Origin: Sulfurimicrobium lacus
GTDB lineage: Bacteria; Pseudomonadota; Gammaproteobacteria; Burkholderiales; Sulfuricellaceae
Assembly (NCBI RefSeq): GCF_011764585.1
Contig: NZ_AP022853.1
Span: 2,947,501-3,011,500 of the forward strand
Reading direction: 5' to 3'
Length of the DNA stretch: 64,000 bases
Part shown: positions 30,759-49,799 of the stretch, piece by piece
Layout of the letters: every line of letters starts with the position of its first letter
How positions within the stretch are numbered: the first letter of the stretch is position 1
Made by a program: the position numbers and the translations under genes
Notes under the pieces: model-generated
Databases searched by the model: none
What the model saw: only the letters and a program-made list of their open reading frames with translations
Told to the model about the DNA's origin: nothing

Positions 30759-32558
30759 ATGTCTGAAAATTCGCTGAAAAGCGCACTCGCCTGCAATCTC
30801 TGGCTCCATAAAATATTCCCCTTCCTGCGCTGGTGGCCGATGCTGGACAAGCACACCACGCGCGCCGACATGATTGCCGGCCTGACCGGCGCCATCATCG
30901 TGCTGCCTCAGGGCGTGGCATTCGCCACCATCGCCGGACTGCCGCCGGAATACGGCCTGTATGCCGCGATGGTTCCGGCCATATTCGGCGCGCTGTTCGG
31001 GTCCAGCTGGCACCTGGTTTCGGGTCCGACCACTGCCATTTCCATTGTCGTATTCTCCTCGGTCAGTCCGCTCGCCGAGCCGGGCAGCGCGCAGTTCATC
31101 AGCCTGGTGCTGACCCTGACCTTCCTCACCGGAGTGTTCCAGCTCATCATGGGCATGGCGCGCATGGGCGTGCTGGTCAACTTCATTTCGCACACGGTGG
31201 TGATCGGCTTTACCGCCGGCGCGGCGGTGCTGATCGCCGCCAGCCAGATCAAGAACTTCTTCGGCATCAACATCCCGCGCGGCTCCCATTTCTACGAGAT
31301 CATCCACCAGTTGGTGCTGCAGATCGGCGAGATCAACCCTTACGTCACCTCGGTGGCGCTGGTCACGCTGCTGTCGGGCATCCTGGTGAAGAAGTTCTGG
31401 CCATGGATTCCCTACATGATCGCCGCCATGCTGATAGGCAGCCTGTTCGCCCTCGGCCTGAACGGCCATTTCGGCAACGACATCACCCACATCCGCACCG
31501 TCGGCGCCCTGCCTGCGCATTTGCCGCCTTTTTCCCTGCCCGACCTGTCGCTGGAAACGATCAAGAAGATGGCGCCCAGCGCCCTGGCCGTGACCATGCT
31601 GGCGCTCACCGAGGCAGTTTCGATCGCCCGCGCCGTGGCGGTGCGCTCGGAACAGCGCATCGACGGCAACCAGGAATTCATCGGCCAGGGACTGTCGAAC
31701 ATCTTCGGCAGCCTGTTCTCCGGCTATGCTTCAAGCGGCTCCTTCAACCGCAGTGGCCTGAACTACGCCGCCGGGGCACGCACCCCGCTGGCGGCGGTAT
31801 TCTCCGCCGTGTTCCTTGCCGCCACCCTGCTCCTGGTGGCCCCGCTCGCGGCCTACCTGCCGATCCCCGCCATGGCGGCGATCCTGTTCCTGGTGGCATG
31901 GGGGCTGATCGACTTCCACCATATTCATTCCATTTTCCACACCAGCCGCGCGGAAACCGCGGTGCTGATCACCACGCTGCTCTCGACCCTGTTCGTCGAA
32001 CTGGAATTCGCCATCTACGTCGGCGTGATGCTGTCGCTCATGCTCTACCTCGCCCGCACGTCCCAGCCCGCCATCGTGCCGGTGATACCTGCCGGCGAAG
32101 AAGGCGCCTACCATTTCGAAGACCTCAAGGGACGCACCGAATGCCCGCAATTCCGCATGGTGCGCGTCAACGGCTCGATCTTTTTCGGCGCGGTCGACCA
32201 CGTACAGCGCAACCTGCAACAGATCGACGAAATCAATCCGCAGCAGAAAACGGTTCTGGTGGTCGGCAGCGGCGTCAATTTCGTCGACGTGGCAGGGGCG
32301 GAAATGCTGTCGCAGGAAGCCAAGCGCCGGCGCAAGATGGGGGGCGGACTGTATTTCTATCGCCTCAAGGAGCCGGTGTACAACTTCCTCAAGCAGGGAC
32401 ACTACCTGAAGGACATCGGCGAGAGCAGCTTCTTCCCAGCCAAATCGAACGTGATCCCGGTGGTCTACGAAACCCTCGACCCGGAAATCTGCCGCACCTG
32501 CAAGGCCAGGATTTTCCCGGAATGCCAGGAAGTTCTTCCGGGCGGAGAGAGGCGCTAA
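30759..32558 (+). CDS. SulP family anion transporter with STAS domain and Cys-rich tail (SulP-1)
   Basis: The 599-residue inner-membrane protein has the SulP core (about 12-14 helices, residues about 30-430) with the N-terminal signature G-L-P-P-E-Y-G-L-Y-A-A, then S-G-S-F-N-R-S. A STAS domain (about 450-560) carries V-N-F-V-D-V-A-G-A-E-M-L. After STAS comes an unusual tail, D-P-E-I-C-R-T-C-K-A-R-I-F-P-E-C-Q, with cysteines at 578, 581 and 589. SulP proteins carry sulfate, bicarbonate or other anions. This copy is closest to SulP-2 in the window. Context with carbonic anhydrase further down favours inorganic carbon, but sulfate is not excluded. Confidence 0.92.
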   Translation: MSENSLKSALACNLWLHKIFPFLRWWPMLDKHTTRADMIAGLTGAIIVLPQGVAFATIAGLPPEYGLYAAMVPAIFGALFGSSWHLVSGPTTAISIVVFSSVSPLAEPGSAQFISLVLTLTFLTGVFQLIMGMARMGVLVNFISHTVVIGFTAGAAVLIAASQIKNFFGINIPRGSHFYEIIHQLVLQIGEINPYVTSVALVTLLSGILVKKFWPWIPYMIAAMLIGSLFALGLNGHFGNDITHIRTVGALPAHLPPFSLPDLSLETIKKMAPSALAVTMLALTEAVSIARAVAVRSEQRIDGNQEFIGQGLSNIFGSLFSGYASSGSFNRSGLNYAAGARTPLAAVFSAVFLAATLLLVAPLAAYLPIPAMAAILFLVAWGLIDFHHIHSIFHTSRAETAVLITTLLSTLFVELEFAIYVGVMLSLMLYLARTSQPAIVPVIPAGEEGAYHFEDLKGRTECPQFRMVRVNGSIFFGAVDHVQRNLQQIDEINPQQKTVLVVGSGVNFVDVAGAEMLSQEAKRRRKMGGGLYFYRLKEPVYNFLKQGHYLKDIGESSFFPAKSNVIPVVYETLDPEICRTCKARIFPECQEVLPGGERR

Positions 32559-32579
32559 GTGCGCCGACAGGCCAACTGC

Positions 32580-33530
32580 TTATTCGCCGGCCGCATACAT
32601 CGAATCAAAAACCCCCATCGCCCGCGCCAGCAGGGCATCGTCGTCGGCGCACTGGCGGCGCAAACCGGACAGCACCATTTCCACGCCCGGCGCCTCTGCC
32701 ACTGCGGCGCCGCCGGCATCCAGAAAATGCACGACGGCAGCGATCCGTCCCAGCAACGGATCCTTGTCCAGACCGAAGGCGGCGAGCAGCACCTCGAACG
32801 TGACATGCTTGCCCACATGGGTGAATTCGGCACCGTCGAAGTCGAATCCGACAGCGTCGGGGGGACAGTTCTCGGGATTTTCCAGCCAGACGAAATGCGC
32901 CTCCGCATCGACGAAACGACGCACCAGCCAAGCGCTCGCCAGGCGATCGACCCACACATGCCGGCGCGTCGCCCACACGCGCCCCAGGTAGGCGGCGCGC
33001 TCGCGCGGCACGATTTCACCGGACACCGTGCGGCGTTCGCCGGGCGACAGGCTGGCAAAGAACAGGGTTTCCGCTTCGGCCAGCCGATCTTCCACCTCTT
33101 CCTTGGTCAAATCGGGAAAGTAGTCCACCGCGGTGATCGCTTCCAGGTCGCGGCGCAGCGCCTTGAGCTGGCGGCGCCCCGCCACCGTGTCCAGCGAGGC
33201 GAAGCCGGACTTGAACGCATCTATCTTTTCCGCGACCTCGCGATATTCAGCACGCCGGTCGAACAGCCCCTGAAATTCGGCGCGCTCCTCGCCCGCCGCA
33301 CTGCTGACGTTCAACAGAAAAGCGCTGCCTCCTCCCTGCCTGACCTCTTCCACGTACATCCTGAGCGCCTGGCGCAGGCCGCGCCCGGCCGGCAGAAGAT
33401 AGACACCATCACGCAATACCGCGCACCCCAGCCCCTTGAGCGCGCGCCATACGCGCGTGCGCACGGTCGCGTTCGAAGTAGGCAGACTCAACACGATGAC
33501 CAGCCATTTGTCCGTCCCGAAAGCCCGCAT
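32580..33530 (-). CDS. chrB: ChrB-like chromate resistance/regulatory protein
   Basis: The start at ATG 33530 (MRAFGTDKWLV) is preferred over a TTG nine codons upstream; the protein has 316 residues. The N-terminal domain W-L-V-I-V-L-S-L-P-T-S-N-A-T-x-R-T-R-V-W-R-A-L-K-G-L-G is characteristic of ChrB. The C-terminal domain has R-R-H-V-W-V-D-R-L-A-S-A-W-L-V-R-R-F and F-D-x-D-G-A-E-F-T-H, the ChrB C-terminal family. ChrB acts as a chromate-responsive regulator in some operons. Here it is convergent with SulP-1 and divergent from SulP-2, and chrA is not adjacent. That placement suggests it may control SulP-2. Confidence 0.88.
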   Translation of the reverse strand: MRAFGTDKWLVIVLSLPTSNATVRTRVWRALKGLGCAVLRDGVYLLPAGRGLRQALRMYVEEVRQGGGSAFLLNVSSAAGEERAEFQGLFDRRAEYREVAEKIDAFKSGFASLDTVAGRRQLKALRRDLEAITAVDYFPDLTKEEVEDRLAEAETLFFASLSPGERRTVSGEIVPRERAAYLGRVWATRRHVWVDRLASAWLVRRFVDAEAHFVWLENPENCPPDAVGFDFDGAEFTHVGKHVTFEVLLAAFGLDKDPLLGRIAAVVHFLDAGGAAVAEAPGVEMVLSGLRRQCADDDALLARAMGVFDSMYAAGE

Positions 33531-33704
33531 CCTGACCCGCCCCTGTATTTGTTTCAATCATTACACTATATTGTCACTACAACATCAACAACAAAAAACA
33601 TTAAACCTCGCAAATCAAGGCCCTGCAACACTTGCAAGAACATTGAAAAAAAACGATAATTACAAGTCTCGAAAGCCTCAAATCAAATTCTTGTAGGAAA
33701 TACC

Positions 33705-35492
33705 GTGCTGAACCCGTCCTGCTGCCCCCTCCTGTTCTACAAAATATTTCCCTTCCTGCGTTGGTGGCCCATGGTCAACAAGGCCTCCAACAAGGCGGAC
33801 CTGATCGCCGGCATCACCGGCGCGATGATCGTGCTGCCGCAGGGCGTGGCCTTCGCCACCATCGCGGGCATGCCCCCCGAATACGGCCTGTATGCCGCCA
33901 TGGTGCCGGCCATCATCGCCGCCATGTTCGGATCGAGTTGGCACCTGGTTTCCGGCCCGACCACGGCCATTTCCATCGCCGTGTTTGCGGCCATGAGCCC
34001 CCTCGCCGACCCGGGCTCGCCCCAGTTCGTCAGCATGGTGCTGACCCTGACTTTCCTTACCGGCCTGTTCCAGCTAATCCTCGGACTGGCGCGCATGGGG
34101 GTGCTGGTCAACTTCATCTCCCACACAGTGGTGATCGGCTTTACCGCCGGCGCGGCTTTGCTGATCGCCGCCAGCCAGGTGAAGAACTTCTTCGGCATTG
34201 CCATCGAGCGCGGCGCACACTTCCACGTGGTGATCGAGCAACTGGTTCTGCAGTTCGGCAACATCAACCCCTATGTCACCGCTGTTGGCGCCGTAACGCT
34301 GGCAACCGGCATTCTGGCCAAGAAGTTCATCCCCAAGTTCCCATACATGATCGTCGCCATGGTGGTGGGCAGCGTGCTGGCTTATTTCATCAACCTGGAA
34401 TTCGGCGTTGAAGTCACCAAGATCAAGACGGTGGGTGCCCTGCCGGCCAGCCTGCCGCCGTTCTTCCTACCCGATTTTTCCTATGCCACCATCCACAAGG
34501 TGGTCTTCCCGGCGCTGGTCGTCACCATGCTGGCACTGACCGAGGCAGTTTCCATTTCACGCGCCATTGCCACCAAATCCGAGCAACGCATCGATGGCAA
34601 CCAGGAGTTCGTCGGCCAGGGTCTGGCCAACATAGTCGGCAGCTTTTTCTCCGGCTACGCTTCCTGCGGCTCCTTCAACCGCAGCGGCGTCAACTACGCT
34701 TCGGGCGCACAGACCCCGCTGGCAACGGTTTATGCCTCGATTTTCCTGGTACTGATCCTGCTGCTGGTAGCGCCGCTCGCTTCCTACCTGCCCAATGCTG
34801 CCATGGCCGGTATCCTGTTCCTGGTGGCATGGGGCCTGATCGACTTCCACCACATCGGCTCCATCGGCAAGACCAGCATGGCGGAAACCGTGGTGCTGTG
34901 GGTTACGCTGCTCGGCACCCTGGTCAACCTGGAAGAGGGCATCTTCTTCGGCATCCTGCTCTCCCTTTCGCTCTACCTGTACCGCGTTTCGCGCCCGGCG
35001 ATCGACCCGGTGGTACCGGCCAAGGAAGAAGGCGCCTACCATTTCGTGGACGCGCACGGCCACCACGAGTGCCCGCAGTTCCGCATCGTGCGCATCAACG
35101 GCGCGGTGTTTTTCGGCGCGGTGGATTACGTGCAGAACGGCCTGACCCAGATCGACGAATCCAACCCGGACCAGAAGTCGGTGATGATCGTCGCCAGCGG
35201 CATCAACTTCATCGACGTGGCTGGCGCGGAAATGCTCGCTCAGGAAGCGCGTCGCCGGCGCAAGATGGGCGGCGGTCTGTACTTCTACCGCTGCAAGGAT
35301 TCCATCTACAAATTCCTGCGCAAATCCGACAAGCTGGACGACATCGGCGAAGGCGGTTTCTTCCCGGCCATGTCGAACTGGATCAAGCCGATTTACAGCA
35401 CCCTCGACCCGGAAATCTGCCGCAACTGCAAATACCGCATTTTCCCCGAGTGCCAGACCCATTTGCCCGACGGCGAGGCGAGGACGGCATGA
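33705..35492 (+). CDS. SulP family anion transporter with STAS domain and Cys-rich tail (SulP-2)
   Basis: A GTG start at 33705 follows GTAGGAAA, a good ribosome binding site, giving 595 residues. The core and STAS domain match SulP-1 closely (G-M-P-P-E-Y-G-L-Y-A-A, S-C-G-S-F-N-R-S, I-N-F-I-D-V-A-G-A-E-M-L). The same tail is present, with cysteines at 572, 575 and 583 (C-x2-C-x7-C). The stop TGA overlaps the ATG of the gamma carbonic anhydrase gene, so the two proteins are made together. A transporter coupled to a carbonic anhydrase is the strongest reason to suspect bicarbonate as substrate. Confidence 0.93.
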   Translation: MLNPSCCPLLFYKIFPFLRWWPMVNKASNKADLIAGITGAMIVLPQGVAFATIAGMPPEYGLYAAMVPAIIAAMFGSSWHLVSGPTTAISIAVFAAMSPLADPGSPQFVSMVLTLTFLTGLFQLILGLARMGVLVNFISHTVVIGFTAGAALLIAASQVKNFFGIAIERGAHFHVVIEQLVLQFGNINPYVTAVGAVTLATGILAKKFIPKFPYMIVAMVVGSVLAYFINLEFGVEVTKIKTVGALPASLPPFFLPDFSYATIHKVVFPALVVTMLALTEAVSISRAIATKSEQRIDGNQEFVGQGLANIVGSFFSGYASCGSFNRSGVNYASGAQTPLATVYASIFLVLILLLVAPLASYLPNAAMAGILFLVAWGLIDFHHIGSIGKTSMAETVVLWVTLLGTLVNLEEGIFFGILLSLSLYLYRVSRPAIDPVVPAKEEGAYHFVDAHGHHECPQFRIVRINGAVFFGAVDYVQNGLTQIDESNPDQKSVMIVASGINFIDVAGAEMLAQEARRRRKMGGGLYFYRCKDSIYKFLRKSDKLDDIGEGGFFPAMSNWIKPIYSTLDPEICRNCKYRIFPECQTHLPDGEARTA

Positions 35493-36049
35493 TCCGCAAG
35501 AACCCGAGCGGCGACCTGCCACTCATCCATGAGTCCGCCTATGTCGACAACACCGCGATTCTCTGCGGCAAGATCATCGTAGAGGAAAATGTTTTCATCG
35601 GGCCATACGCCGTCATTCGCGCCGATGAAGTCAACGAGCACGGCGAGATGGAGCCGATCATCATCGGCGCCAACTCCAATATCCAGGACGGCGTGGTCAT
35701 CCACTCCAAGGCGGGCGGTCTCGTCAGGATCGGCACCAACACCTCGATCGCCCACCGCTCCATCGTGCATGGCCCGTGCGTCGTCGGGGAGAACGTCTTC
35801 ATCGGCTTCAACTCGGTGCTGTTCGACTGCGTGATCGGCAATGGCTCGGTCGTGCGGCACAACTCCGTGGTGGAACACTGCGCAGTACCCGAGAACTTTC
35901 ATATCCCCTCCACCACCAACGTGCATTCCAACCAGGAACTGAACAAGATCGAACAGGTTTCGCCGCAGGCGAGCGACTTCTCCGAATCGGTATTGAAAGC
36001 CAACCACGAACTGGTCAAGGGATACAAGAAACTGCAGAACGAGTTTTAA
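35489..36049 (+). CDS. Gamma-class carbonic anhydrase-like hexapeptide protein
   Basis: This 186-residue left-handed beta-helix protein has repeated (I/V)-G-x-x sequences. The zinc ligands line up with Cam: H72 in V-V-I-H-S, and H89 and H94 in I-A-H-R-S-I-V-H-G-P with the right spacing of five. R44 and D46 (V-I-R-A-D) match the conserved Arg/Asp of the family. A C-terminal helix (residues about 150-186) follows. The start overlaps the SulP-2 stop as ATGA. CO2/HCO3- interconversion beside a SulP porter fits an inorganic carbon uptake unit; activity is not proved by sequence. Confidence 0.85.
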   Translation: MIRKNPSGDLPLIHESAYVDNTAILCGKIIVEENVFIGPYAVIRADEVNEHGEMEPIIIGANSNIQDGVVIHSKAGGLVRIGTNTSIAHRSIVHGPCVVGENVFIGFNSVLFDCVIGNGSVVRHNSVVEHCAVPENFHIPSTTNVHSNQELNKIEQVSPQASDFSESVLKANHELVKGYKKLQNEF

Positions 36050-36134
36050 CTGCAACATCGCGCGTACCGCCTTTCCCTGCCTGACCTCCGCCGCCAAAGA
36101 CCATGATGATTTGATGTCTTTCCGCCGGTCTCGC

Positions 36135-36163
36135 TGGTATGATTTAAGGACTACATGAAGTCC
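36135..36163 (+). promoter_or_regulatory. Extended -10 promoter and inverted repeat upstream of SulP-3
   Basis: TGGTATGAT at 36135-36143 is an extended -10 element, about 74 bases before the SulP-3 start. GGACT (36148-36152) and AGTCC (36159-36163) form a short inverted repeat just after it, where a repressor could bind. No clear -35 hexamer was found. Confidence 0.4.
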
Positions 36164-36216: not shown

Positions 36217-38367
36217 ATGATTCAGGTTGCACGCGTTCTACCATTTTTGCGCTGGTTCCCGTTAAGCGGGACAAATATCAAATCCGACCTGATCGCCGGC
36301 ATCACCGTGGCGCTGGTGTTGATCCCGCAATCCATGGCCTATGCCCAGCTGGCCGGACTTCCCCCTTACTACGGACTGTATGCGGCATTCCTGCCAGGTA
36401 TCATTGCCGCCCTGTGGGGATCCTCGGCGCAGCTCGCCACCGGCCCGGTGGCCGTGGCCTCCCTGCTCACCGCCTCCACCCTGGCGCCACTGGCCGCCAC
36501 CGGCTCGGAGCAATTCATCGCCCTCGCCATCCTGATGGCCATGCTGGTGGGCATCATCCAACTCGCGCTGGGCGCCTTCAAGCTCGGCGTAGTGGTCAAC
36601 TTCCTCTCGCACCCGGTGATCGTCGGCTTCACCAACGCCGCCGCCATCATCATCGGCCTGTCCCAACTCAACAAGCTGTTCGGCGTTTCCATGGGACGCA
36701 GCGAACATTTCATCCAGGATATCTGGGGCGTATTGCTGCAGATCGGCGACACCCATCTGCCCACGCTGATCATGGGCATTTGCGCCTTCGCCATCATGTT
36801 CGGCCTGAAAAAATTCGCGCCAAAAATGCCCGGCGTGCTGATCGCGGTCGCCCTCACCACCGTGGTGAGCTGGGCCATTGGCTTCGAGCACAACAGCAAG
36901 GGCCGGATCGAGGACATCATGGACGTCGAGGTCAAGGCCCTGGCCAATGACTTTTCCGGCACTGAAACCAGGATCGACGCGCTCAACAACAAGATCAGCG
37001 CCAAGTCCCTGGAACTCAAGCAGCACCAGAAAGCCCATGAAGGCGGTTCGCAACGCACCGCGGCACTCAAGTACGAACTGGAACTGCTCAAGCTGGAACT
37101 GAAGGACAGCGAAGGTGAAAATCGCAAGCTGGCGCGTTCCATGCGCAAGTTCATCTTCGAACAGGTGCCGGCGACCGATGGCCAGCCTGCAAAACTCTAC
37201 CTGGCAGGGCAGCTCCCCCAAGGTGAAAAATCCGATGGCTACCGCTGGCGTATCCGCAAGGTAAGCAAGGGCGAAATGAAACTGGTCGGCGGCGGCGAAG
37301 TGGTGGGCGCGATTCCAGCCGGCCTGCCCAAGGTCGACGTGCCGCAATTCAGCTGGGACATGGTGACAACCATGCTTTCCGGTGCGCTGGTCATCTCCCT
37401 GGTCGGCTTCATGGAAGCCATTTCCATCGCCAAGGCCATGGCCGCCAAGACCAAGGCACGCATCGACCCCAACCAGGAACTGCTGGGACAGGGCCTGTCC
37501 AACCTGATCGGCAGCTTCAGCCAGGCTTTCCCGGTCAGCGGCTCCTTCTCGCGCTCGGCGGTCAACCTCAATGCCGGCGCGGTAACGGGGATGTCCTCGG
37601 TGTTCGCCGGCATCATCGTACTGGTCACCCTGCTGTTCCTCACGCCGCTGCTGTATCACCTGCCCCAGGCGGTGCTGGCAGCAGTGATCATGATGGCGGT
37701 GATCGGCCTGATCAATTTCAAGGCGATCAAGCATGCCTGGCACACCCACAAGCATGACGGCATCGCCTCGGTGGTGACCTTCGTCGCCACCCTGGCGTTC
37801 GCCCCGCACCTGGACAACGGCATCATGGTAGGCGCCGGCTTGGCCATCATCCTCTATCTCTACCGCACCATGACGCCGCGCGTCGCCATTCTCGGCCGCT
37901 ACCACGACGGCACCCTGCGCGACGCCAAGATCAACAATCTCCCGATCAGCGAATACATCATCGCCATCCGCTACGACGGTTCGCTGTACTTCGCCAACGT
38001 GCCCTACTTCGAGGACGTCATTCTGGAAGCCGTGGCCAACAGCCCCTGCGCCAAGCATCTGCTGATCGTGTCGGACGGCATCAACCAGCTCGACGCCTCA
38101 GGCGAGGAAGTCATCCATCACATGGTGGAGCGTTTACGCTCCAGCGGCATCCGCGTCGTTTTCAGCGGCCTCAAGAAGCAGGTTCTCGACGTCATGCACC
38201 ATTCCGGGCTGTTCGACTACATCAGTCAGGAAAACATTTTCCCGGACGAAGACAAGGCGCTGGAATCGATTTACGCCGAAGTCCTGGAGAAAGACCCTAA
38301 CGCCCAATGCCGCCTGATGAAGGGCGGACATATTGGCGGGGCCGATGGAGTCAAGACCTGGCTGTGA
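36217..38367 (+). CDS. SulP family anion transporter with a large inserted coiled-coil segment (SulP-3)
   Basis: The 716-residue protein starts at ATG 36217 after AGGGGGAA. The SulP core is clear (G-L-P-P-Y-Y-G-L-Y-A-A, P-V-S-G-S-F-S-R-S-A-V-N) and the STAS domain ends the protein (I-N-Q-L-D-A-S-G-E-E). Compared with SulP-4, it carries about 130 extra residues (about 229-360), inserted after the helix ending W-A-I-G-F. The insert begins with charged heptad-like helices (K-L-E-L/E-L-L-K-L-E-L type) and ends with a beta-like stretch. It sits in an extramembrane loop and could mediate oligomerisation or partner binding. No Cys tail is present. The OmpR-type regulator follows immediately. Confidence 0.92.
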   Translation: MIQVARVLPFLRWFPLSGTNIKSDLIAGITVALVLIPQSMAYAQLAGLPPYYGLYAAFLPGIIAALWGSSAQLATGPVAVASLLTASTLAPLAATGSEQFIALAILMAMLVGIIQLALGAFKLGVVVNFLSHPVIVGFTNAAAIIIGLSQLNKLFGVSMGRSEHFIQDIWGVLLQIGDTHLPTLIMGICAFAIMFGLKKFAPKMPGVLIAVALTTVVSWAIGFEHNSKGRIEDIMDVEVKALANDFSGTETRIDALNNKISAKSLELKQHQKAHEGGSQRTAALKYELELLKLELKDSEGENRKLARSMRKFIFEQVPATDGQPAKLYLAGQLPQGEKSDGYRWRIRKVSKGEMKLVGGGEVVGAIPAGLPKVDVPQFSWDMVTTMLSGALVISLVGFMEAISIAKAMAAKTKARIDPNQELLGQGLSNLIGSFSQAFPVSGSFSRSAVNLNAGAVTGMSSVFAGIIVLVTLLFLTPLLYHLPQAVLAAVIMMAVIGLINFKAIKHAWHTHKHDGIASVVTFVATLAFAPHLDNGIMVGAGLAIILYLYRTMTPRVAILGRYHDGTLRDAKINNLPISEYIIAIRYDGSLYFANVPYFEDVILEAVANSPCAKHLLIVSDGINQLDASGEEVIHHMVERLRSSGIRVVFSGLKKQVLDVMHHSGLFDYISQENIFPDEDKALESIYAEVLEKDPNAQCRLMKGGHIGGADGVKTWL

Positions 38368-40727: not shown

Positions 40728-42418
40728 ATACCTGGGTTCATCGTCTGCCGATAGCCAAGCGCTTCAGTCTGAATCCCGACGAGCTCAAGAACGACCTGGT
40801 CGCCGGCGTCACCGTCTCGCTGGTAGCCATCCCGCAATCCCTGGCCTATGCCCAGCTAGCCGGTGTTCCCGCTTACTACGGCCTTTATGCCGCGCTGGTG
40901 CCCACCATCATCGGCGCCCTGTTCGGCTCTTCCCGGCAACTTTCGACCGGCCCTGTTGCCATGACCTCGCTGCTGACGGCGGCTAGCGTCGCCCCTCTGG
41001 CTGCGCACGGCAGCGAGATGTTCTACGCTTACGTGATTCTGCTCGCCTTGCTGTCCGGCCTGTTTCAGGTGCTTTTCGGCGCGCTGCGCATGGGCGTACT
41101 GCTCAACTTCCTGTCTCATCCGGTACTGATGGGATTCATCAACGCCGCGGCCATCATCATCGGCCTGTCGCAACTACCGACCCTGTTAGGCATATCGGCT
41201 CGCCAGTCCGACCATTTCCTGCTCGACATCTGGCAGGTGCTGTCGCACATCGACACCATGCATGAGATCTCGGTAGCCTTCGGCATTTCGGCCATCATCC
41301 TGCTGGTCGGTTTCAAGAAGCTGGCACCGAAGCTCCCCGGCGTGCTGATCACGGTTGTCCTGCTGACCTGGGTCAGCTACATGCTCGACTACGCCGGCCT
41401 GGGCGGCAAGGTCGTCGGCCTGGTGCCGAGCGGCCTGCCTTCGCTGAGCATGCCGCTGCTTGACTGGCACGCCACCATGGCACTGCTCCCCGCCGGCTTC
41501 GTCATCGCGCTCATCAGTTTCATGGAAGCCATGTCCAGCGCCAAGGTAATCGCCATCAAAACGCGGCAGCCGTGGGATGAAAACAAGGAACTCATCGGCC
41601 AGGGCCTGGCGAAAATCGCCGCGGCTTTCAGCCATTCCATGCCCGTCAGCGGCTCCTTTTCCCGTTCCGCACTGAACCTTGCGACGAACGCACAGACGCC
41701 ATTTTCTTCCGTCATCTCGGCAATTTTCGTCCTGCTGACCCTGCTCTTCTTCACCTCCCTGCTCTACCACCTGCCCAAGCCGGTTCTGGCCGCAATCATC
41801 ATGATGGCAGTCATCGGCCTGATCAATTTCAAGGCAATCTTCAACGCCTGGCGCGCCAGTCGCGATGACGGCATCGCGTCCATGGTCACTTTCCTGTCCA
41901 CCCTGGCGTTTGCGCCCAACATCCAGAACGGCATTCTCACCGGCATCATCCTGTCTCTGGCGATGCTGCTCTACCGCATGATGAAGCCGCATATCGCCGC
42001 ATTGGGAAAACACGATGACGGAACACTGCGCGACGCCCAGCGGCACCAGCTCCCTCCATTGCACCCCAAGCTCGGCGCGATCCGCTTCGATGGCGCGCTC
42101 CGGTTCGTCAATTCGTCCTACTTCGAGGACGCACTGCTCAAACTCGAAAGGGAAAATCCGGCAGTGCGCTATATCCTGGTGAAATGCAGCGGCGTGAATT
42201 ATCTGGACGCCTCGGGGGTCGAGATGCTCAATAACCTGATCAGTCGCTTCCGGAACAATGGCATCACTTTGGGCTTCAGTGACCTGAAGAAACAGGTTCG
42301 GGAGGTGATGGACCGAACCGGTCTTAGCCAGGGAATCGGCCACGAAAACATCTTTTCAAGCGATCACGAAGCTTTCGAGCAACTGTATTTGCGCGGCGAG
42401 ATTGACGTAAGAATCTAG
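40724..42418 (+). CDS. SulP family anion transporter with STAS domain (SulP-4)
   Basis: The 564-residue protein has a SulP core (G-V-P-A-Y-Y-G-L-Y-A-A, P-V-S-G-S-F-S-R-S-A-L-N) and a C-terminal STAS domain (V-N-Y-L-D-A-S-G-V-E-M-L). It is closest to SulP-3 but lacks that protein's inserted segment, and lacks the Cys tail of SulP-1 and SulP-2. It begins within the stop of the small protein gene and probably depends on the TTGACG promoter. It is followed by the Hyf-like operon after a 176-base gap. The substrate is uncertain; bicarbonate or sulfate are the main candidates. Confidence 0.92.
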   Translation: MNTWVHRLPIAKRFSLNPDELKNDLVAGVTVSLVAIPQSLAYAQLAGVPAYYGLYAALVPTIIGALFGSSRQLSTGPVAMTSLLTAASVAPLAAHGSEMFYAYVILLALLSGLFQVLFGALRMGVLLNFLSHPVLMGFINAAAIIIGLSQLPTLLGISARQSDHFLLDIWQVLSHIDTMHEISVAFGISAIILLVGFKKLAPKLPGVLITVVLLTWVSYMLDYAGLGGKVVGLVPSGLPSLSMPLLDWHATMALLPAGFVIALISFMEAMSSAKVIAIKTRQPWDENKELIGQGLAKIAAAFSHSMPVSGSFSRSALNLATNAQTPFSSVISAIFVLLTLLFFTSLLYHLPKPVLAAIIMMAVIGLINFKAIFNAWRASRDDGIASMVTFLSTLAFAPNIQNGILTGIILSLAMLLYRMMKPHIAALGKHDDGTLRDAQRHQLPPLHPKLGAIRFDGALRFVNSSYFEDALLKLERENPAVRYILVKCSGVNYLDASGVEMLNNLISRFRNNGITLGFSDLKKQVREVMDRTGLSQGIGHENIFSSDHEAFEQLYLRGEIDVRI

Positions 42419-42594: not shown

Positions 42595-44613
42595 GTGATT
42601 AGCATATCCAGCACTTTGCCAATTGATTGGGTCATCGGCGTCGTTGCGTTCTGGTTCCTCATCGGTCTGCTTGGTCTCGCGCTGCAAGACAAACCCCGTC
42701 TCATCACGGCACTGATTTTCCCGGCCGGAGCATTGGCCGCCCTGGTTCTGGCTGCTTCCGCCCTGGTTGCGCTCGGCCAGGGAGCCAGCGTGGCAACACT
42801 GCCGCTCGGCCTGCCGGACCTGCCTTTCCATCTCCGGCTCGATGCACTTTCGGCATTCTTCCTGCTGATTCTGGGGGCGGCCTCCTTCGGCATTTCGCTC
42901 TACGGCGCCGGCTACTTCCGTTCCATGGACAAGGCTACGCTGGGATTGCTGTGCTTCGAGTACCACCTGTTTCTCGCGAGCATGGCACTGGTAATCCTGG
43001 CGGACGATGCTTACATGTTCATGGTGGCTTGGGAGACGATGGCCATCTCCTCCTACTTTCTCGTCACCACCGACCACAAGATTCCCGAAATCCGCAGCGC
43101 CGGCTTCATTTACCTGCTCATCGCACATATCGGCGCCATCGCCATTCTGATGTGCTTCGGCGTGCTGGAAGGCGGTCAGGGTGACTACACCTTCGCCACC
43201 ATGCGCCACCACGCGCTTTCACCCTTGTGGGCCAGCATCGCGTTTTTGCTGGCGCTGTTCGGCTTCGGCGCCAAGGCCGGCATGCTGCCGCTTCATGTCT
43301 GGCTGCCCGAGGCACATCCCGCAGCTCCCTCGCCGGTTTCCGCCATGATGAGCGGCATCATGCTGAAAACCGCCATTTACGGCATTTTGCGGGTGACGTT
43401 CGACCTCCTCCACACCAGCCAGTGGTGGTGGGGCATCCTGGCACTGACGCTGGGGCTGCTGACGGCGCTCTACGGGGTGCTCTTCGCCACGGTGCAATCG
43501 GACATGAAGCGCCTGCTGGCGTATTCCTCGATCGAAAACATCGGCATCCTCATCGCCGGCATCGGCCTGACCATCCTGTTTCATTCCAGCAACCAGGACC
43601 AGGTGGCCGCGCTGGCCCTGGTCGCCACGCTCTACCACGCGCTCAACCATTCGTTTTTCAAATCGCTGCTGTTCCTTACCACCGGTTCGGTGCTGCATTC
43701 CACCGGGGAACGCAACCTCGGCAAGCTGGGCGGCCTGATCCACAAGATGCCCTGGGTGGCGCTGCTGGCGCTGGTGGGCGTGCTCGCCATCTCCGGCCTG
43801 CCGCCCCTCAACGGCTTCGTTTCCGAATGGCTGCTGCTGCAGGCATTCCTGCTCGCTCCCAACATGCCCCACCAGCTCTACATCAGCATGCTCCTGCCGC
43901 TGGGCGCGGCGGCGCTTGCCCTGGCCGGCGCCCTTGCCGCCTACGCCATGGTCAAATTCTACGGCATCATTTTTCTCGGTCAGCCACGCGAAGAACGGCT
44001 CGCTGAAGCCCACGACGCAGGCCCGCTGGAACGGGCGGGCATGCTCTGGCTAGCGGGCTGGTGCGTGATACTAGGCCTGTCCCCGGTGTTTTTTATCCTC
44101 CAGATCGACAACGTCGCGATGGCCCTGGTCGGTCGCGACCTCGGCGGCAGCGCCGCCAGTAGCGGGTGGCTCTGGCTCACCCCGGTCGCCGCGGAACGCG
44201 CCAGCTACAGCCCGCTGATTCTGTTCCTCATCATTCTTGCCGGCTTCATTTTCACGTTCTTGTTCGCACGCAAGTTCTACCATGGCAAGGTGCGCCGCGG
44301 CCCGGCCTGGGACTGCGGCTATCCCGCCCAGACGCCGCGCATGCAGGACAGCGCTGAAGGCTTCGGCCAGCCGATCCGCCAAATTTTCGAACAATTCTTC
44401 GGTATCGTGCGCGAGGTGCCCAACCCCTTCGATACCCACCCCCACTACCACGGGGAAACCCGCGACCAGATCTGGGACCTGATTTACCATCCTGTCGCCC
44501 GTCTTGCCGAGTGGCTGTCCGCGCTGATCGGCAAGCTGCAGCACGGCCGCATATCCCTTTACCTGCTGTACAGCTTCGTTACGCTCATGGCGTTGCTGGC
44601 TTTCGTCCGATGA
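42595..44613 (+). CDS. Hydrogenase-4/NuoL-like antiporter subunit (HyfB-type)
   Basis: The 672-residue membrane protein begins at GTG 42595; the nearest GAGG lies about 14 bases upstream, so the start is not certain. It has about 16 helices and the proton-conducting subunit motif, with a Lys in G-F-G-A-K-A-G-M-L-P-L-H-V-W-L-P-E-A-H-P. It also has the usual Y-S-S-I-E-N-I-G segment and the C-terminal W-D-C-G-Y region found in HyfB/HycC. Its length fits HyfB. It heads a six-gene run with overlapping ends. The subunit should move H+ or Na+. Together with the large subunit lacking nickel ligands, it belongs to a hydrogenase-related (Ehr-type) complex rather than a hydrogenase. Confidence 0.9.
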   Translation: MISISSTLPIDWVIGVVAFWFLIGLLGLALQDKPRLITALIFPAGALAALVLAASALVALGQGASVATLPLGLPDLPFHLRLDALSAFFLLILGAASFGISLYGAGYFRSMDKATLGLLCFEYHLFLASMALVILADDAYMFMVAWETMAISSYFLVTTDHKIPEIRSAGFIYLLIAHIGAIAILMCFGVLEGGQGDYTFATMRHHALSPLWASIAFLLALFGFGAKAGMLPLHVWLPEAHPAAPSPVSAMMSGIMLKTAIYGILRVTFDLLHTSQWWWGILALTLGLLTALYGVLFATVQSDMKRLLAYSSIENIGILIAGIGLTILFHSSNQDQVAALALVATLYHALNHSFFKSLLFLTTGSVLHSTGERNLGKLGGLIHKMPWVALLALVGVLAISGLPPLNGFVSEWLLLQAFLLAPNMPHQLYISMLLPLGAAALALAGALAAYAMVKFYGIIFLGQPREERLAEAHDAGPLERAGMLWLAGWCVILGLSPVFFILQIDNVAMALVGRDLGGSAASSGWLWLTPVAAERASYSPLILFLIILAGFIFTFLFARKFYHGKVRRGPAWDCGYPAQTPRMQDSAEGFGQPIRQIFEQFFGIVREVPNPFDTHPHYHGETRDQIWDLIYHPVARLAEWLSALIGKLQHGRISLYLLYSFVTLMALLAFVR

Positions 44614-45563
44614 ATACTTCGACCTTATCATTGCAGTTGCTGCAAAACATGCTGGTCGTCCTCGCCGCGCCGCTCCTGCTCGGCTGGGTAAATACCTGTC
44701 GCGCCTGGATGCAAAGCCGTAGCGCGGCAGGCATCTTCCAGCCCTACCGCAACCTGGCCAAGCTGTTTCAGAAGGACGCAGTGCTGGCCCACAACGCCTC
44801 CCCGCTGTTCCGCTACACCCCCTACATCCTGTTCGTCAGCATGTGGCTGGCCGCCGCGATGGTGCCTGTGATTGCCGTGGATCTACCGCTTTCCACGGTA
44901 GTCGACGTCATCGCGCTGGTGGGCGTATTCGCCTTGGCACGGGTGTTCATCGCGCTGGCGGCGATGGACGTCGGCACCTCGTTCGGCACGCTGGGCGCGA
45001 GGCGCGAAATGCTGGTTTCCTTCCTCGCCGAGCCGGCGCTAATGATGGTTTTCTTTACCGCCGCCGCCATCAGTCATTCAACCTCGCTCACCACCATCGT
45101 GGGCGTGCTGGCGCACAAAGAGTTCGTGCTGCACCCCAGCCTGGCGTTCGCCGCCATTGCTTTCATCATGGTGCTGCTGGCCGAAAATGCGCGCATCCCG
45201 GTGGACAACCCGTCCACCCACCTCGAACTCACCATGATCCACGAGGCCATGATCCTGGAATACTCGGCGCGCCATCTGGCACTGATCGAATGGGCTAGCG
45301 CCATCAAGCTGTTCGCCTACATCACCATCGGCTTTGCCCTGTTCCTGCCGTGGGGCATTGCCGGCGTGGGCGAATGGAACGCGCTGCCGCTGGCGCTGGT
45401 ACTGCTGGTCATCAAACTCGCCGCGGCGGGTTTCGGTCTGGCCCTGCTCGAAAGCGTATCGGCCAAGCTGCGTATCTTCCGCGCCCCGGAATTCCTGGGG
45501 ACGGCATTCCTGCTGGCAGTGCTGGGCATACTCACTCACTTCCTGCGGACTAGCGTGGCATGA
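44610..45563 (+). CDS. NuoH/HyfC-like membrane subunit
   Basis: The 317-residue protein starts with ATG overlapping the HyfB-type stop (ATGA). It has about eight helices and shows the quinone-site family marks: Q-P-Y-R-N-L-A-K-L-F near residue 43, E-P-A-L-M-M-V-F-F, and the acidic loop E-N-A-R-I-P-V-D-N-P-S-T-H-L-E-L-T-M-I-H-E-A-M. Those acidic and basic residues link the soluble arm to the membrane arm in complex I relatives. It is expected to anchor the peripheral subunits encoded downstream. Confidence 0.92.
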   Translation: MNTSTLSLQLLQNMLVVLAAPLLLGWVNTCRAWMQSRSAAGIFQPYRNLAKLFQKDAVLAHNASPLFRYTPYILFVSMWLAAAMVPVIAVDLPLSTVVDVIALVGVFALARVFIALAAMDVGTSFGTLGARREMLVSFLAEPALMMVFFTAAAISHSTSLTTIVGVLAHKEFVLHPSLAFAAIAFIMVLLAENARIPVDNPSTHLELTMIHEAMILEYSARHLALIEWASAIKLFAYITIGFALFLPWGIAGVGEWNALPLALVLLVIKLAAAGFGLALLESVSAKLRIFRAPEFLGTAFLLAVLGILTHFLRTSVA

Positions 45564-46216
45564 ACATGCAAGGCCAACTCATCGATCTCTTCGCATCCCT
45601 GTTGCTGCTCATTTCTTTCGCCATGCTCGCGCAGAGACGGATTCTCAGGTTGATCAACCTGTTCGCCTGGCAAGGCCTGATACTGAGCGTTTCCACCTTG
45701 GTCGTGGCGTGGTCGTCGCACCAGCACCACCTGTATTACTCCGCCGGCCTGACCCTGCTGCTGAAAGTCATATTCCTGCCCTGGCTGCTGCACCGCCTGA
45801 TCCGCAAGCTCGACATCAAGTGGGACGTTGAAACCCTCATCAACATACCAACCACCATGCTGATCGGCATCGGCCTGGTGGTCTTCGCCTTCAACCTGGC
45901 CCTGCCCATATCCGCACTCTCGGCAACCATCACCAAGAGCACGCTGGGCATCGCGCTCGCCACCGTACTGCTGTCGTTCATGATGATGATCACGCGGCGC
46001 AAGGCGGTACCCCAGGTGATCGGCTTCCTGGCCATGGAAAACGGATTGTTTTTCGCCGCCACCAGCGCCACCTACGGCATGCCGATGGTGGTGGAACTGG
46101 GCATCGCACTGGACGTGCTGGTGGGCTCTTTCATATTCGGCATTTTCTTCTTCCACATCCGCGAGACGTTCGACAGCCTGGACATCAAGCATATGGAAAA
46201 GCTGAAAGAGGATTGA
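45560..46216 (+). CDS. HyfE-like membrane subunit
   Basis: The 218-residue, highly hydrophobic protein has about seven helices. It corresponds to HyfE, whose C-terminal half resembles NuoK (F-L-A-M-E-N-G-L-F-F-A with the membrane Glu). Start and stop overlap both neighbours. It has no cofactor motif and probably contributes to ion transfer. Confidence 0.88.
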   Translation: MNMQGQLIDLFASLLLLISFAMLAQRRILRLINLFAWQGLILSVSTLVVAWSSHQHHLYYSAGLTLLLKVIFLPWLLHRLIRKLDIKWDVETLINIPTTMLIGIGLVVFAFNLALPISALSATITKSTLGIALATVLLSFMMMITRRKAVPQVIGFLAMENGLFFAATSATYGMPMVVELGIALDVLVGSFIFGIFFFHIRETFDSLDIKHMEKLKED

Positions 46217-46218
46217 AC

Positions 46219-47668
46219 GTGGAAATTATCTGGCTGCTCAGCATTCCTCTCGCCGGCGGGCTTTTATTAGCGCTGCTGGGTGGCAAACGCTATGCGCCCG
46301 AACTCAATTCGCTGATGAGTTTCGGCACCTTGGTCGCCTCCGCCGTACTGACATTGAAGATCATCAGCGGCGGCCCCATGACCGCCTTCGGCGAACAGTT
46401 TTTCATCGACTCCTTCAACGTGTTCCTGGTCGCGCTGACCGCCTTCGTGGCATTCACCACGTCGCTGTTCTCGCGCCCCTACATGCGCATCGAGGATGCA
46501 TCACGGCAAGCTCAGCCGCAACATGCTGCGCCTCTATCACAGCATGTACCAGCTGTTCAGCTTCACCATGCTGCTGGCGCTCACCACCAACAACATGGGC
46601 ATCCTGTGGGTGGCCATGGAAGCAGCCACGCTCACCACGGTGCTGCTGGTTTCGCTGTACCGCACCCCGGCGTCGCTGGAAGCCGCGTGGAAATACTTCA
46701 TCCTGTGCGGCGTGGGCATCGCCCAGGCGCTGTTCGGCACCATCCTGCTCTACTTCGCGGCGGAAAAAGTGCTCGGCGCCGGGGGTACCGCGCTGCTGTG
46801 GACGCACCTCAACGCGGTCAAGACCGAGTTGGAACCAACCGTGCTCTCCCTCGCCTTCGTCTTCCTACTGGTGGGCTACGGCACCAAGGTCGGGCTGGCC
46901 CCTCTGCACAACTGGCTGCCCGATGCGCACGCCGAAGGCCCGACACCTATCTCGGCCGTGCTCTCCGGCCTGCTGCTCAATGTTGCCCTCTATGCCGTGG
47001 TGCGCTCCAAGGTGCTGGTGGATGGCGCGCTGGAAACCCACTTCGCCGGCAACCTAATGATGGGCTTCGGGCTGCTGTCGGTGGTCATGGCGGCATTCTT
47101 CCTGTCGCGCCAGAAAGACATCAAGCGCATGTTCGCCTATTCTTCCATCGAACACATGGGGCTGATGACCTTCGCCTTCGGCATGGGCGGCGCGGTGGCA
47201 ACCTTTGCCGCGCTGCTGCACATGACCGTTCACTGCCTAACCAAATCCGCCATCTTTTATGCCGTCGGCCACGCTACGCAGAACGCCGGCACCCAGCTCA
47301 TGGACGGCATCCGCGGCTTGATCAGGACCAGCCCGACCATCGGCTGGGGGCTGATCCTTGGCAGCCTGGCGATCCTCGGCATGCCCCCGTTCGGCGTTTT
47401 CGCCAGCGAATTCCTAATCATCACCACCGCCATGCACGAACACTCGTGGGCCACGCCGTTCCTGCTGATCGCGCTGGGCGTGGCTTTCGCCGCAATTTTC
47501 GGCAAAGTGCAGCCAATGGTGTTCGGCGAAACCGAGGCATTACGCCTGCCCCATCCGCCTGCACTGATACCGGTGTTCGTCCACCTGGGGCTGGTTTTGA
47601 TGCTGGGCCTGTACATCCCGCCCTACCTGGCCGACTGGTACCGCCAGGCAGCGGCGTTGCTGGGTTAA
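46219..47668 (+). CDS. HyfF/NuoN-like antiporter subunit, interrupted by an apparent one-base frameshift
   Basis: The GTG at 46219 after GAGGA is the better start; a TTG at 46213 is also in frame. The first 90 or so residues (W-L-L-S-I-P-L-A-G-G... to S-R-P-Y-M-R-I-E) read in one frame. The homologous continuation, H-G-K-L-S-R-N-M-L-R-L-Y-H-S-M-Y-Q-L-F, is in the +1 frame from about 46496 and runs to the stop at 47668 without interruption, including Y-G-T-K-V-G-L-A-P-L-H-N-W-L-P-D-A-H. One extra base near 46490-46497 explains it. It could be a real mutation, a sequencing error or, less likely, programmed frameshifting. The conserved downstream frame argues against long-standing decay. Confidence 0.8.
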
Positions 47669-47672
47669 TTTC

Positions 47673-49214
47673 ATGAGCGATCCCGTACTGCAACTAGAAG
47701 AACTCAAGACCGGTCTTCCCGCCTGGCGCGCCACCGTGGATGCCGGGCAGTTCCGTGCCACCTGCGCCAGAGTCCGCGACGGCGGCGGACGCCTGATCGC
47801 GCTGTGGGGCAGCGACGAACGCGCCCGCGGACAAGGCTTCGCGCTGCATGCGGCCATGATGGACTCTCCCGGCCTGGTCTGCCTGACCCTAGCGCTGGAC
47901 AGCAACGAGCCGACTTACCTTAGCATTATCGATATTTTCCCCACCGCCAACCGCATGCAACGCGCGCTGTACGACCTGCTCGGCATCGTTGCGCAGGACA
48001 GCCCTGACACGCGCAAATGGCTGCGCCACGGCGCTTGGCCGGAAGAGCTGTTCCCCCTGCGCAAGGAATTCGACCTCAAAACCCAGCATCCGTTGAGCGA
48101 CGACGCCTATCCCTTCGTCACCGTGACCGGCAACGGCGTGCACGAGATCCCGGTTGGCCCGGTGCATGCAGGCACCATCGAACCCGGGCATTTCCGCTTC
48201 TCCATCATCGGCGAACGAGTGCTGCGATTGGAAGAGCGCCTCGGCTACAAGCACAAGGGCGTGGAAAAGCTTGCCGAAACCATGACCGTGGAGCAAGGCG
48301 CCAAGCTGGCCGGACGAATTTCCGGCGACAGCACCGTCGCCTATGCCTGGGCCTACGCCATGGCGGCGGAAAACCTCGCCAACCTCACCCCCGAGCCGCG
48401 CGCCGTGTGGCTGCGCGCGTTGCTGCTGGAACGCGAGCGCATTGCCAACCACCTCGGCGACCTCGGCTATCTCGGCAATGATGTCGCCCTGGCATTCGGC
48501 TTCGCACAGTTCTGGCGCCTCAAGGAAGACTGGCTGCGCGGCAACCAGGCGATGTTCGGCCACCGTTACCTGATGGACAGCATTATCCCCGGCGGGGTCG
48601 CGGTAGATCTCAAGCCCGCCGATTACGGCCGCCTAGTGAAAGATGGCGATGAACTGGAACGGGAAGTGCGCATCCTGCGCGATATTTACGAGGAGCACGC
48701 CGGGGCCCAGGACCGCTTCGTCACTACCGGCCGCGTCAAGCCGGAACTGGCGGCAAACCTCGGGCTCACCGGCTTCGCCGGCCGCGCCAGCGCCCAGTCA
48801 TGGGATCTGCGCGCCCAATATCCGAGCGCCCCTTACGACCAACTCGACGTGCGCATGGCGACCCATAGAAACGGCGACGTGGCGGCGCGGGTGATCGTAC
48901 GCTTCGAAGAAGTGTTCGAATCGCTGAGATTGTGCCGCCTGATCCTCGACCGCATGCCGGCCGGCCCGGTCCTCACGCCCTTTCCGGACGTACCCGAAAA
49001 CGCTTTCGGCGTCGGCATGGTGGAGGGCTGGCGCGGCGAGGTACTGATGGCATTGCACAGCGGCAAGGACAACCGCATCGAACGCCTGCACCCGCATGAC
49101 CCGTCGTGGCAGAACTGGCCCCTGCTGGAACACGCCGTGATCGGCAACATCGTGCCGGACTTTCCGCTGATCAACAAATCGTTCAATTTGAGCTACACAG
49201 GAACGGATTTATGA
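47673..49214 (+). CDS. HyfG/NuoD-like large subunit lacking the nickel-binding cysteines
   Basis: The 513-residue protein combines an N-terminal NuoC-like domain (residues about 50-130) with a NuoD/hydrogenase large-subunit domain (G-P-V-H-A-G-T-I-E-P-G-H-F-R-F, R-L-G-Y-K-H-K-G). Where hydrogenases have R-I-C-G-I-C-G, this protein has R-I-S-G-D-S-T (Ser217 and Ser220). At the end, where hydrogenases have D-P-C-x-x-C, it has N-L-S-Y-T-G-T-D-L (Ser507, Gly510). All four Ni-Fe ligands are therefore gone, so it should not bind a [NiFe] centre. It belongs with hydrogenase-related complexes of unknown electron donor. Confidence 0.9.
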   Translation: MSDPVLQLEELKTGLPAWRATVDAGQFRATCARVRDGGGRLIALWGSDERARGQGFALHAAMMDSPGLVCLTLALDSNEPTYLSIIDIFPTANRMQRALYDLLGIVAQDSPDTRKWLRHGAWPEELFPLRKEFDLKTQHPLSDDAYPFVTVTGNGVHEIPVGPVHAGTIEPGHFRFSIIGERVLRLEERLGYKHKGVEKLAETMTVEQGAKLAGRISGDSTVAYAWAYAMAAENLANLTPEPRAVWLRALLLERERIANHLGDLGYLGNDVALAFGFAQFWRLKEDWLRGNQAMFGHRYLMDSIIPGGVAVDLKPADYGRLVKDGDELEREVRILRDIYEEHAGAQDRFVTTGRVKPELAANLGLTGFAGRASAQSWDLRAQYPSAPYDQLDVRMATHRNGDVAARVIVRFEEVFESLRLCRLILDRMPAGPVLTPFPDVPENAFGVGMVEGWRGEVLMALHSGKDNRIERLHPHDPSWQNWPLLEHAVIGNIVPDFPLINKSFNLSYTGTDL

Positions 49215-49215
49215 G

Positions 49216-49286
49216 CAATCAGCGGTCAGCTATCAGCCAGACCGCCAGATGCTGACCGCTGACAGCTGATTACTGAGAGCTATTAA
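49216..49286. repeat. Inverted repeat element between large- and small-subunit genes
   Basis: CAGCGGTCAGC (49220-49230) and GCTGACCGCTG (49251-49261) are perfect 11-base inverted arms. The left part shares ATCAGCGGTCAGCTA with the element next to the heptamer array at 11888-11915. The transcript would fold into a hairpin between two genes of one operon. It separates the last gene from the otherwise overlapping cluster. Confidence 0.75.
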
Positions 49287-49799
49287 ATGTACCAGATCAT
49301 CAAGCAGATGCTGCGCACCGGCATCAAGACCGAAACGCCACCCGCCACGGACGAGTCTCTGCGGGTTGTTCAGCAGCGCCTGCAGGAAGACATTCTCAAG
49401 CACTTCGGCCGCGCGCTGGCCATCCGTCACGTCGATGCGGGGTCATGCAATGGCTGCGAACTGGAAATTCACTGCCTCAACAACCCCTACTACAATCTTG
49501 AAGGCCTGGGCATCAACTTTGTCGCCAGCCCGCGCCACGCGGACATGCTGCTGGTCACCGGACCGGTGACGAAGAACATGGAAGTCGCCTTGCAGCGCAC
49601 TTACGACGCCACGCCGGACCCCAAGCTCGTGGTCGCGCTCGGCGACTGCGGTTGCTGCGGGGGGATTTACGGCGAAAATTACGCCAGTTGCGGCGGGATT
49701 TCGAATGTCATCCCGGTGGATGTCGCCGTTCCCGGTTGCCCGCCCACTCCCACGGCGATCATGCAGGGCATCCTGACCGCCATCAGCAAGGGCGCTTGA
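49287..49799 (+). CDS. HyfI/NuoB-like small subunit with one [4Fe-4S] cluster
   Basis: The 170-residue soluble subunit has the proximal cluster ligands intact: C54 and C57 in G-S-C-N-G-C-E-L-E, C121 in A-L-G-D-C-G, and C151 in V-P-G-C-P-P-T-P. This is the N2-type cluster arrangement of complex I and group 4 hydrogenases. Extra cysteines (C123, C124) lie beside C121. It is the last gene of the cluster. No ferredoxin-like NuoI/HyfH subunit is encoded in between, so how electrons enter or leave is unclear. The gene ends convergent to era. Confidence 0.9.
   Translation: MYQIIKQMLRTGIKTETPPATDESLRVVQQRLQEDILKHFGRALAIRHVDAGSCNGCELEIHCLNNPYYNLEGLGINFVASPRHADMLLVTGPVTKNMEVALQRTYDATPDPKLVVALGDCGCCGGIYGENYASCGGISNVIPVDVAVPGCPPTPTAIMQGILTAISKGA

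Follow-up and report, generated by a model that had tools for sequence, protein, structure and literature searches.

A SulP, carbonic anhydrase and hydrogenase-related gene island of Sulfurimicrobium lacus as a probable inorganic-carbon acquisition module

We analysed a stretch of 64,000 nucleotides from Sulfurimicrobium lacus (contig NZ_AP022853.1, positions 2,947,501 to 3,011,500 of the forward strand; hereafter the window, numbered from its first letter), in which four SulP porter genes, a gamma-carbonic anhydrase gene (gCA), chrA and chrB, two two-component systems and six hyf genes for a Hyf-like complex lie together. This island is probably an inorganic-carbon (DIC) acquisition module of an autotroph. 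The Hyf-like complex has lost the nickel-iron (NiFe) site of hydrogenases, it alternates with the DAB complex behind SulP3, and these genes are linked to carbonic anhydrases and to RuBisCO genes. An earlier note on this DNA had named all the island genes, including the overlap of gCA with SulP2 and a small protein, and every one of them was recovered with Pfam and alignments. The host genome is a single contig of 3.83 Mb that carries RuBisCO genes, assigned from their sequences to form I and form II, at two places outside the island. The word island refers here to gene linkage and not to foreign DNA; the GC content of the region (0.59 to 0.62) matches the remainder of the window, which rules out a foreign island by composition.

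DAB is a known DIC pump, and PMC13144422 presents it as a CO2-hydrating pump. The order in the window is SulP2-gCA-SulP3 (SulP3 at 36217-38367, plus strand), then a response regulator, a histidine kinase, SulP4 and the hyf genes, and an era-like gene (GTPase and KH domain) closes the hyf set. In three related genomes (G002, G003 and G005), chrA-chrB-SulP2-gCA-SulP3 is followed by a DAB operon, and in G005 (locus L254) DAB reaches the same era-like gene. In G014, chrA-chrB-SulP2 is followed further on by SulP3-DAB, without gCA, and in G007 SulP3-DAB and chrA-chrB-SulP2 lie on separate contigs. PF10070 identified DabA at 1e-231 or better in all three such genes scanned, and it had no match in the S. 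lacus genome. The 70 SulP3 places that we inspected, the window not counted, come from loci of which some were selected because they carry hyf or DAB. Behind SulP3 we found hyfB (same strand, within 3 kb) at 18 places, DAB at 11 and neither at 39, and two places were cut off at the sequence end; G009, with the arrangement of the window, was counted as neither. Both types occur behind SulP3 within families f1 and f224. Since Hyf and DAB alternate in at least these two families, the swap was repeated or was followed by losses. The earlier note had proposed a search for conserved synteny of SulP, gCA and the Hyf-like genes among relatives, and the linkage was found to be kept.

A less biased, order-wide sample of 300 genomes contained 49 with SulP3, one of them S. 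lacus itself. Hyf lay directly behind SulP3 in 10 of the 49 (G008, G012, G013, G673, G518, G422, G568, G627, G532 and G549), DAB in seven (G003, G005, G014, G552, G473, G430 and G640) and neither in 31, the last group including five genomes whose loci were left out of inspection (G458, G477, G488, G593 and G651). DabA was present anywhere in the genome in 0/10, 7/7 and 12/31 of these groups, respectively (Fisher p=0.02 for 0/10 versus 12/31). Three of the 12 genomes carry DabA close to SulP3 but not behind it, namely G504, G436 (8.0 kb) and G479 (8.2 kb). In the first of these (G504:C34:23184-27795), DabA and the SulP3-type gene share a strand, DabA lying 224 bp ahead, and fba comes after the SulP3-type gene. 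Within family f1 (22 genomes), two genomes had both systems, 14 had hyf only, five had DAB only and one had neither (p=0.004); the hyf count includes G009 and G021, in which hyfG was not found and the contigs hold other hyf genes. In an Accumulibacter locus (L092), hyf is followed by a DAB operon about 1.5 kb further on.

The complex that takes this place is encoded on the plus strand by hyfB (42595-44613; antiporter-like, PF00361, above the cut-off of the NCBIfam model for hydrogenase 4 subunit B), hyfC (44610-45563; NuoH-like, PF00146), hyfE (45560-46216; NF008556 at 4.5e-26, below cut-off, and tblastn with relatives), hyfF (46213-47668; antiporter-like), hyfG (47673-49214; NuoCD-like large subunit) and hyfI (49287-49799; NuoB-like small subunit), with 4-bp overlaps throughout hyfB-C-E-F. 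The best solved match of HyfG was formate hydrogenlyase subunit 5 (7z0s, 5e-67), and its best named matches came from Gallionellales and other betaproteobacteria, Thiobacillus included. The motifs RVCGICG and DPCYSC of Escherichia coli HyfG align with RISGDST and NLSYTG in the window, and none of 12 aligned HyfG sequences has a cysteine at any of the four nickel-iron positions. Because HyfG is devoid of all four cysteines, the complex is not a hydrogenase but belongs to the hydrogenase-related (Ehr) complexes, being group-4-like, free of NiFe ligands and equipped with antiporter-like subunits. A nickel-iron group 4 hydrogenase, hydrogenase-4 included, is ruled out by the loss of both CxxC nickel-iron motifs of the large subunit. 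Compared with E. coli hydrogenase-4, the window has homologues of hyfB, C, E, F, G and I, whereas the island has no hyfA, hyfD, hyfH or hyfJ. A scan confined to the island ORFs found no ferredoxin-like subunits of the HyfA or HyfH type, both of which E. coli has, and no other electron-input subunit (NuoEFG-like or formate dehydrogenase) was found among these ORFs. In all 10 HyfI sequences compared, the cysteines for one 4Fe-4S cluster (CxxC, C and C) are conserved. The positions of NuoM E144, K234 and E407, which we take to be proton-carrying residues, are occupied by Glu, Lys and Glu in both HyfB and HyfF.

The reading of hyfF runs in frame 1 from 46213 and in frame 2 from about 46496, and one extra base near 46491, relative to the unbroken genes of L040 and L041, accounts for a +1 frameshift in the assembly. 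The extra base is either an assembly error or the mark of a broken gene. The six-gene complex of the earlier note was recovered, with a HyfG free of nickel-iron ligands, but the ORF at 46213-47676 is not HyfF along its whole length. The genome has a second hyf set (C1:2261634-2268823, L039), whose HyfG is 46% identical and whose hyfF is open (490 aa); this set lies about 3.4 kb from a SulP gene on the opposite strand. HyfG relatives at E values up to 1e-140 were found in 44 of the 369 genomes of a class-wide sample. Portions of PMC10284858 call the function of Ehr complexes unknown, and portions of PMC6349859 mention a suspected coupling of redox reactions with charge translocation. The Ehr complexes described there share with the window complex the group-4-like large subunit without CxxC NiFe motifs and the antiporter-like subunits, but the window complex is embedded in an island of SulP and carbonic anhydrase genes.

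The gCA gene (35489-36049, plus strand) overlaps SulP2 by 4 bp. Its product carries PF00132 hexapeptide repeats and matches Cam and CcmM chains. His72, His89 and His94 are invariant in 4 of 4 sequences and align with histidines of Cam that are presumably zinc ligands, so that the protein is a predicted gamma-carbonic anhydrase with the three zinc histidines present. No carbonic anhydrase model scored above cut-off among the 25 NCBIfam matches listed. Homologues at E values up to 1e-40 were present in four of the 369 class genomes, S. lacus counted. In G165, a gene of this type lies between cbbL-S-Q-O and fba-cbbM-Q-O, inside a carbon-fixation cluster (gene names read from the sequences; RuBisCO also found by PF00016), and in three other loci (L057, L082 and L274) it stands directly before hyfB. 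Furthermore, a putative protein of 351-353 aa adjoins hyfI in G008, G013, G017 and L074 and lies near it in G012. It was matched by PF20686 at 2.5e-7 in G008 and 1.6e-5 in L074, with no match in G017, by TIGR02701 at 3.6e-10, far below cut-off, and by structure 2fgy at 1.8e-4, which points to a weak but significant similarity to CsoSCA. Proteins of this type (about 353 aa) are encoded at L147:1310-2371 and at C1:2773970-2775028 of the S. lacus genome, and they occurred in 14 of 41 relatives searched.

Carbon-fixation genes also lie near hyf itself. In G013 and G008, cbbR-cbbLSQO follows hyf at about 5 kb, and G008 additionally has a beta-carbonic anhydrase gene (bCA, PF00484) further on (RuBisCO and CbbQ of G008 checked by Pfam, the remaining names in both genomes given by similarity). 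The stretch downstream of hyf in G351 reads PsiE-fba-cbbLS-cbbR-bCA-cbb, and in a Thiomonas locus (L103) cbbM-cbbQ-cbbO begins about 280 bp behind hyf, with cbbM 87% identical. Kin of SulP3 adjoin CbbR-cbbL in G436 and G479. Passages of PMC3826726 place a hyf set of Acidithiobacillus caldus beside a beta-carbonic anhydrase and another with carbon-fixation genes. The linkage of SulP to hyf was above chance: 12 SulP genes were found at 11 of 80 named hyf loci within 713 kb of flanking DNA, where the density of SulP genes in 43 other genomes with hyf predicts about 0.4, a rough yardstick taken from different genomes with a different search method. The earlier note had suggested an energised bicarbonate uptake module. 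Support for its DIC uptake came from DAB in the same slot, from gCA in a cbb cluster and from four genomes with hyf close to cbb genes, and the case for carbon uptake is stronger than the window alone would make it; the ion gradient that Hyf was thought to supply to SulP was not singled out by these results.

The four porters were examined by models and phylogeny. PF00916 matched SulP1 (30759-32558, plus strand) at 6e-96, SulP2 (33705-35492, plus) at 6e-93, SulP4 (40724-42418, plus) at 4.8e-98, and SulP3 in two stretches, as an insert of about 120 aa splits the halves of its transport domain. In TIGR00815, the SulP family model with a cut-off of 380.45 bits, SulP1 (390), SulP3 (435) and SulP4 (433) pass and SulP2 (377) falls just short. 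In a tree of 37 rows, one clade of 26 rows (support 100/100) holds the four window SulPs and SULTR4;1, together with all betaproteobacterial SulPs of the set that adjoin hyf, DAB or Fba/CbbL and five from the more distant G122, G217 and G351. Outside it lie BicA, SLC26Dg, DauA, two methanotroph SulPs, four other SulPs of the host genome, the cbb-adjacent SulP of G116 and a SulP of G176 beside a beta-carbonic anhydrase. SULTR4;1 and BicA are long branches in this tree. BicA-type SulPs are ruled out by the position of BicA and by the BicA model NF050096, in which the window SulPs reach only 146 to 188 bits against a cut-off of 880. Since the clade includes SULTR4;1 and excludes BicA, sulfate specificity of the window SulPs is possible and BicA membership unsupported. 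The phylogeny that the earlier note had called for therefore cuts both ways, the grouping with a sulfate porter counting against bicarbonate and the presence of DAB- and RuBisCO-adjacent SulPs in the same clade counting for it. Bicarbonate as the substrate is suggested by gene context rather than by sequence. BicA and the can2-sulP pair of Acidithiobacillus ferrooxidans, the latter as covered in parts of PMC6458275, likewise set a SulP porter beside a carbonic anhydrase, but the window has a gamma- and not a beta-type enzyme, four SulPs and an Ehr complex, and BicA falls outside the clade.

Several features of these porters stand apart from the question of substrate. A CxxCxxRIFxEC motif follows the STAS domain in SulP1 (32490-32525) and SulP2 (35418-35453); it is found in all eight SulP1/2-clade rows and is absent from the other 25 rows searched (three of these rows are incomplete and one is out of frame). 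It is possibly a metal or redox site. The SulP3 insert (residues about 232-357, 36910-37287), which we expect from the topology on the periplasmic side, is predicted to form a two-helix hairpin and strands with 10-residue pLDDT means of 52-85, in a structure model with a mean pLDDT of 47 in which only the insert and parts of the STAS region are locally better. In three methanotroph loci (L127, L133 and L134), a SulP of a different clade stands right before hyfB, and the closest solved structure to that of L127 is BicA. Two near-identical SulP genes of another clade, at C1:2331268 and C1:2373376 of the S. lacus genome, apparently arose by recent duplication.

Taken as a mechanism, the SulP porters would carry bicarbonate across the inner membrane, gCA would interconvert CO2 and bicarbonate, and the nickel-iron-free Ehr complex would occupy the place of DAB and do a similar job. 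A proton (or other ion) gradient acting via HyfB and HyfF would then power the accumulation of DIC or the hydration of CO2 in one direction, with a carbonic anhydrase as the partner. The repeated positional exchange and the near mutual exclusion tip the balance slightly towards Ehr standing in for DAB. Because Ehr swaps with DAB, itself a CO2-hydrating pump, a direct action of Ehr on DIC is suggested; vectorial CO2 hydration by Ehr together with carbonic anhydrase is a tentative proposal that may well prove wrong. Cyanobacterial NDH-1MS with CupA/CupB is a complex-I relative tied to CO2 uptake, and the window complex would resemble it in this respect, but the carbonic anhydrase linked here is gCA. 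DAB/DAC (DabA and DabB, e.g., Halothiobacillus DAB2, as treated in sections of PMC13144422) shares the antiporter-like membrane subunits of complex-I type, the place behind SulP3 and the DIC setting. In contrast, the window complex has no DabA, it has NuoH-, NuoCD- and NuoB-like subunits, and any carbonic anhydrase working with it would not be one of its subunits but a protein of its own. It is doubtful, although conceivable, that the Ehr of this group adds a third type of energised CO2-hydrating machine to NDH-1MS and DAB. It would be a complex-I relative minus hydrogenase catalysis that draws on the ion gradient to push a separate carbonic anhydrase (gamma-type or CsoSCA-like) in one direction, in a cassette interchangeable with DAB behind a dedicated SulP.

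We found no proposal of Ehr as a DIC pump in the openly searchable literature, subscription papers being outside this scope. The exchange of Hyf and DAB at one locus gives a concrete hypothesis for the function of one Ehr group. If true, it would add a CO2-concentrating device to chemolithoautotrophs, offer porters from outside the BicA clade as candidates for bicarbonate transport and correct readings as hydrogenase-4 or formate hydrogenlyase (e.g., in passages of PMC4136832 and PMC5178258) wherever the same complex is meant.

A number of observations weigh against a DIC role for the island or against the equivalence of Ehr and DAB. Neither complex lies directly behind SulP3 at the majority of the 70 places, hyf and DAB occur together (on different contigs) in G001 and G004, and none of the association tests corrects for shared ancestry. 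The gCA gene accompanies DAB too and so is not Hyf-specific. HyfF of the window is frameshifted, and it has Asn at the position of NuoM K265, presumably also a proton-carrying residue, as does E. coli HyfF. No association of hyf with RuBisCO appeared in the class sample (25 of 44 genomes with HyfG at E up to 1e-140, two of these RuBisCO calls resting on weak matches, versus 187 of 369 overall; p=0.42), so a DIC role may be restricted to the SulP-linked hyf subgroup. Of 43 class hyf genomes, many of them fragmented assemblies, just one (G217) showed SulP and hyf close together on one contig, and Paraburkholderia and Rhodoferax loci carry hyf with no SulP in the stretch covered. The window SulPs group with the sulfate transporter SULTR4;1 and not with BicA, and TauE/SafE and CitMHS-type porters occur near these SulPs at several loci. 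Furthermore, parts of PMC12628692 report that carbonic-anhydrase-less E. coli was rescued by a carboxysome-linked SulP but by neither one SulP nor Chr of Thiomicrospira, so that belonging to the SulP or Chr family proves nothing by itself.

The missing association with RuBisCO fits a redox enzyme, linked to formate, ferredoxin or quinone, that would give the Calvin cycle reductant and lie near carbon genes through lifestyle and not through DIC handling. The suspected redox coupling of Ehr (PMC6349859, in part) and the formate-linked reading of the core hyf of A. caldus in passages of PMC3826726 are consistent with such an enzyme. However, no redox partner gene was found in the island, and hyf and DAB are seldom together; we regard this explanation as unlikely. 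The presence of TauE/SafE and CitMHS-type porters leaves room for a sulfur-anion role, in which the SulPs would act during sulfur oxidation as sulfate exporters or sulfate/bicarbonate exchangers and the island would primarily serve sulfur metabolism. The grouping with SULTR4;1 agrees with this, as does a SulP/carbonic anhydrase 'sulfate/carbonate antiporter' proposed in a portion of PMC2621215, but DAB and RuBisCO genes lie beside SulP3-type SulPs and SulP precedes hyfB in the methanotroph loci as well, which makes a primarily sulfur-related island rather unlikely. The mechanism of the earlier note, spelled out here as a Hyf-like complex that runs a redox reaction and exports ions for bicarbonate uptake by the SulPs, would suit the many genomes in which a SulP immediately precedes hyfB and the 4Fe-4S site kept by HyfI, but is improbable, as the island ORFs yielded no electron-input subunit, a respiring cell has a proton gradient anyway and the DAB swap is left unexplained.

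The remaining genes of the island are transporters and regulators. The CHR-family transporter gene chrA (25646-27043, minus strand; PF02417, 4.3e-77) stands beside chrB and SulP2 in relatives, and chrB (32580-33557, minus; PF09828, 1.6e-44) lies between SulP1 and SulP2. An NtrB-type histidine kinase gene (27752-29317, plus; Pfam HAMP, HisKA and HATPase), which adjoins SulP1 or SulP3 in relatives, is followed by that of an NtrC-type sigma-54 regulator (29326-30708, plus; PF00158, 5.6e-67). The pair between SulP3 and SulP4 consists of an OmpR-type response regulator (38369-39040, plus; PF00072 and PF00486) and its histidine kinase (39033-40325, plus; Pfam). A promoter scan gave four sites versus 5.4 expected, and terminator-like sites numbered 26 versus 17.8 expected, an excess that was not used in any reading. 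A small 70-aa protein (40515-40727, plus) overlaps the start of SulP4, and its homologues stand directly 5' of SulP4 in five related loci (L049, L257, L258, L259 and L261); other relatives have short stretches of weak similarity close to NtrB and SulP3. TauE/SafE porters were seen beside SulPs, gCA or hyf at nine loci (L050, L051, L196, L200, L272, L273, L274, L279 and L282). Upstream of chrA, positions 22009-25578 encode a histidine kinase whose sensor domain is Tll0287-like, and then an HD-GAF response regulator.

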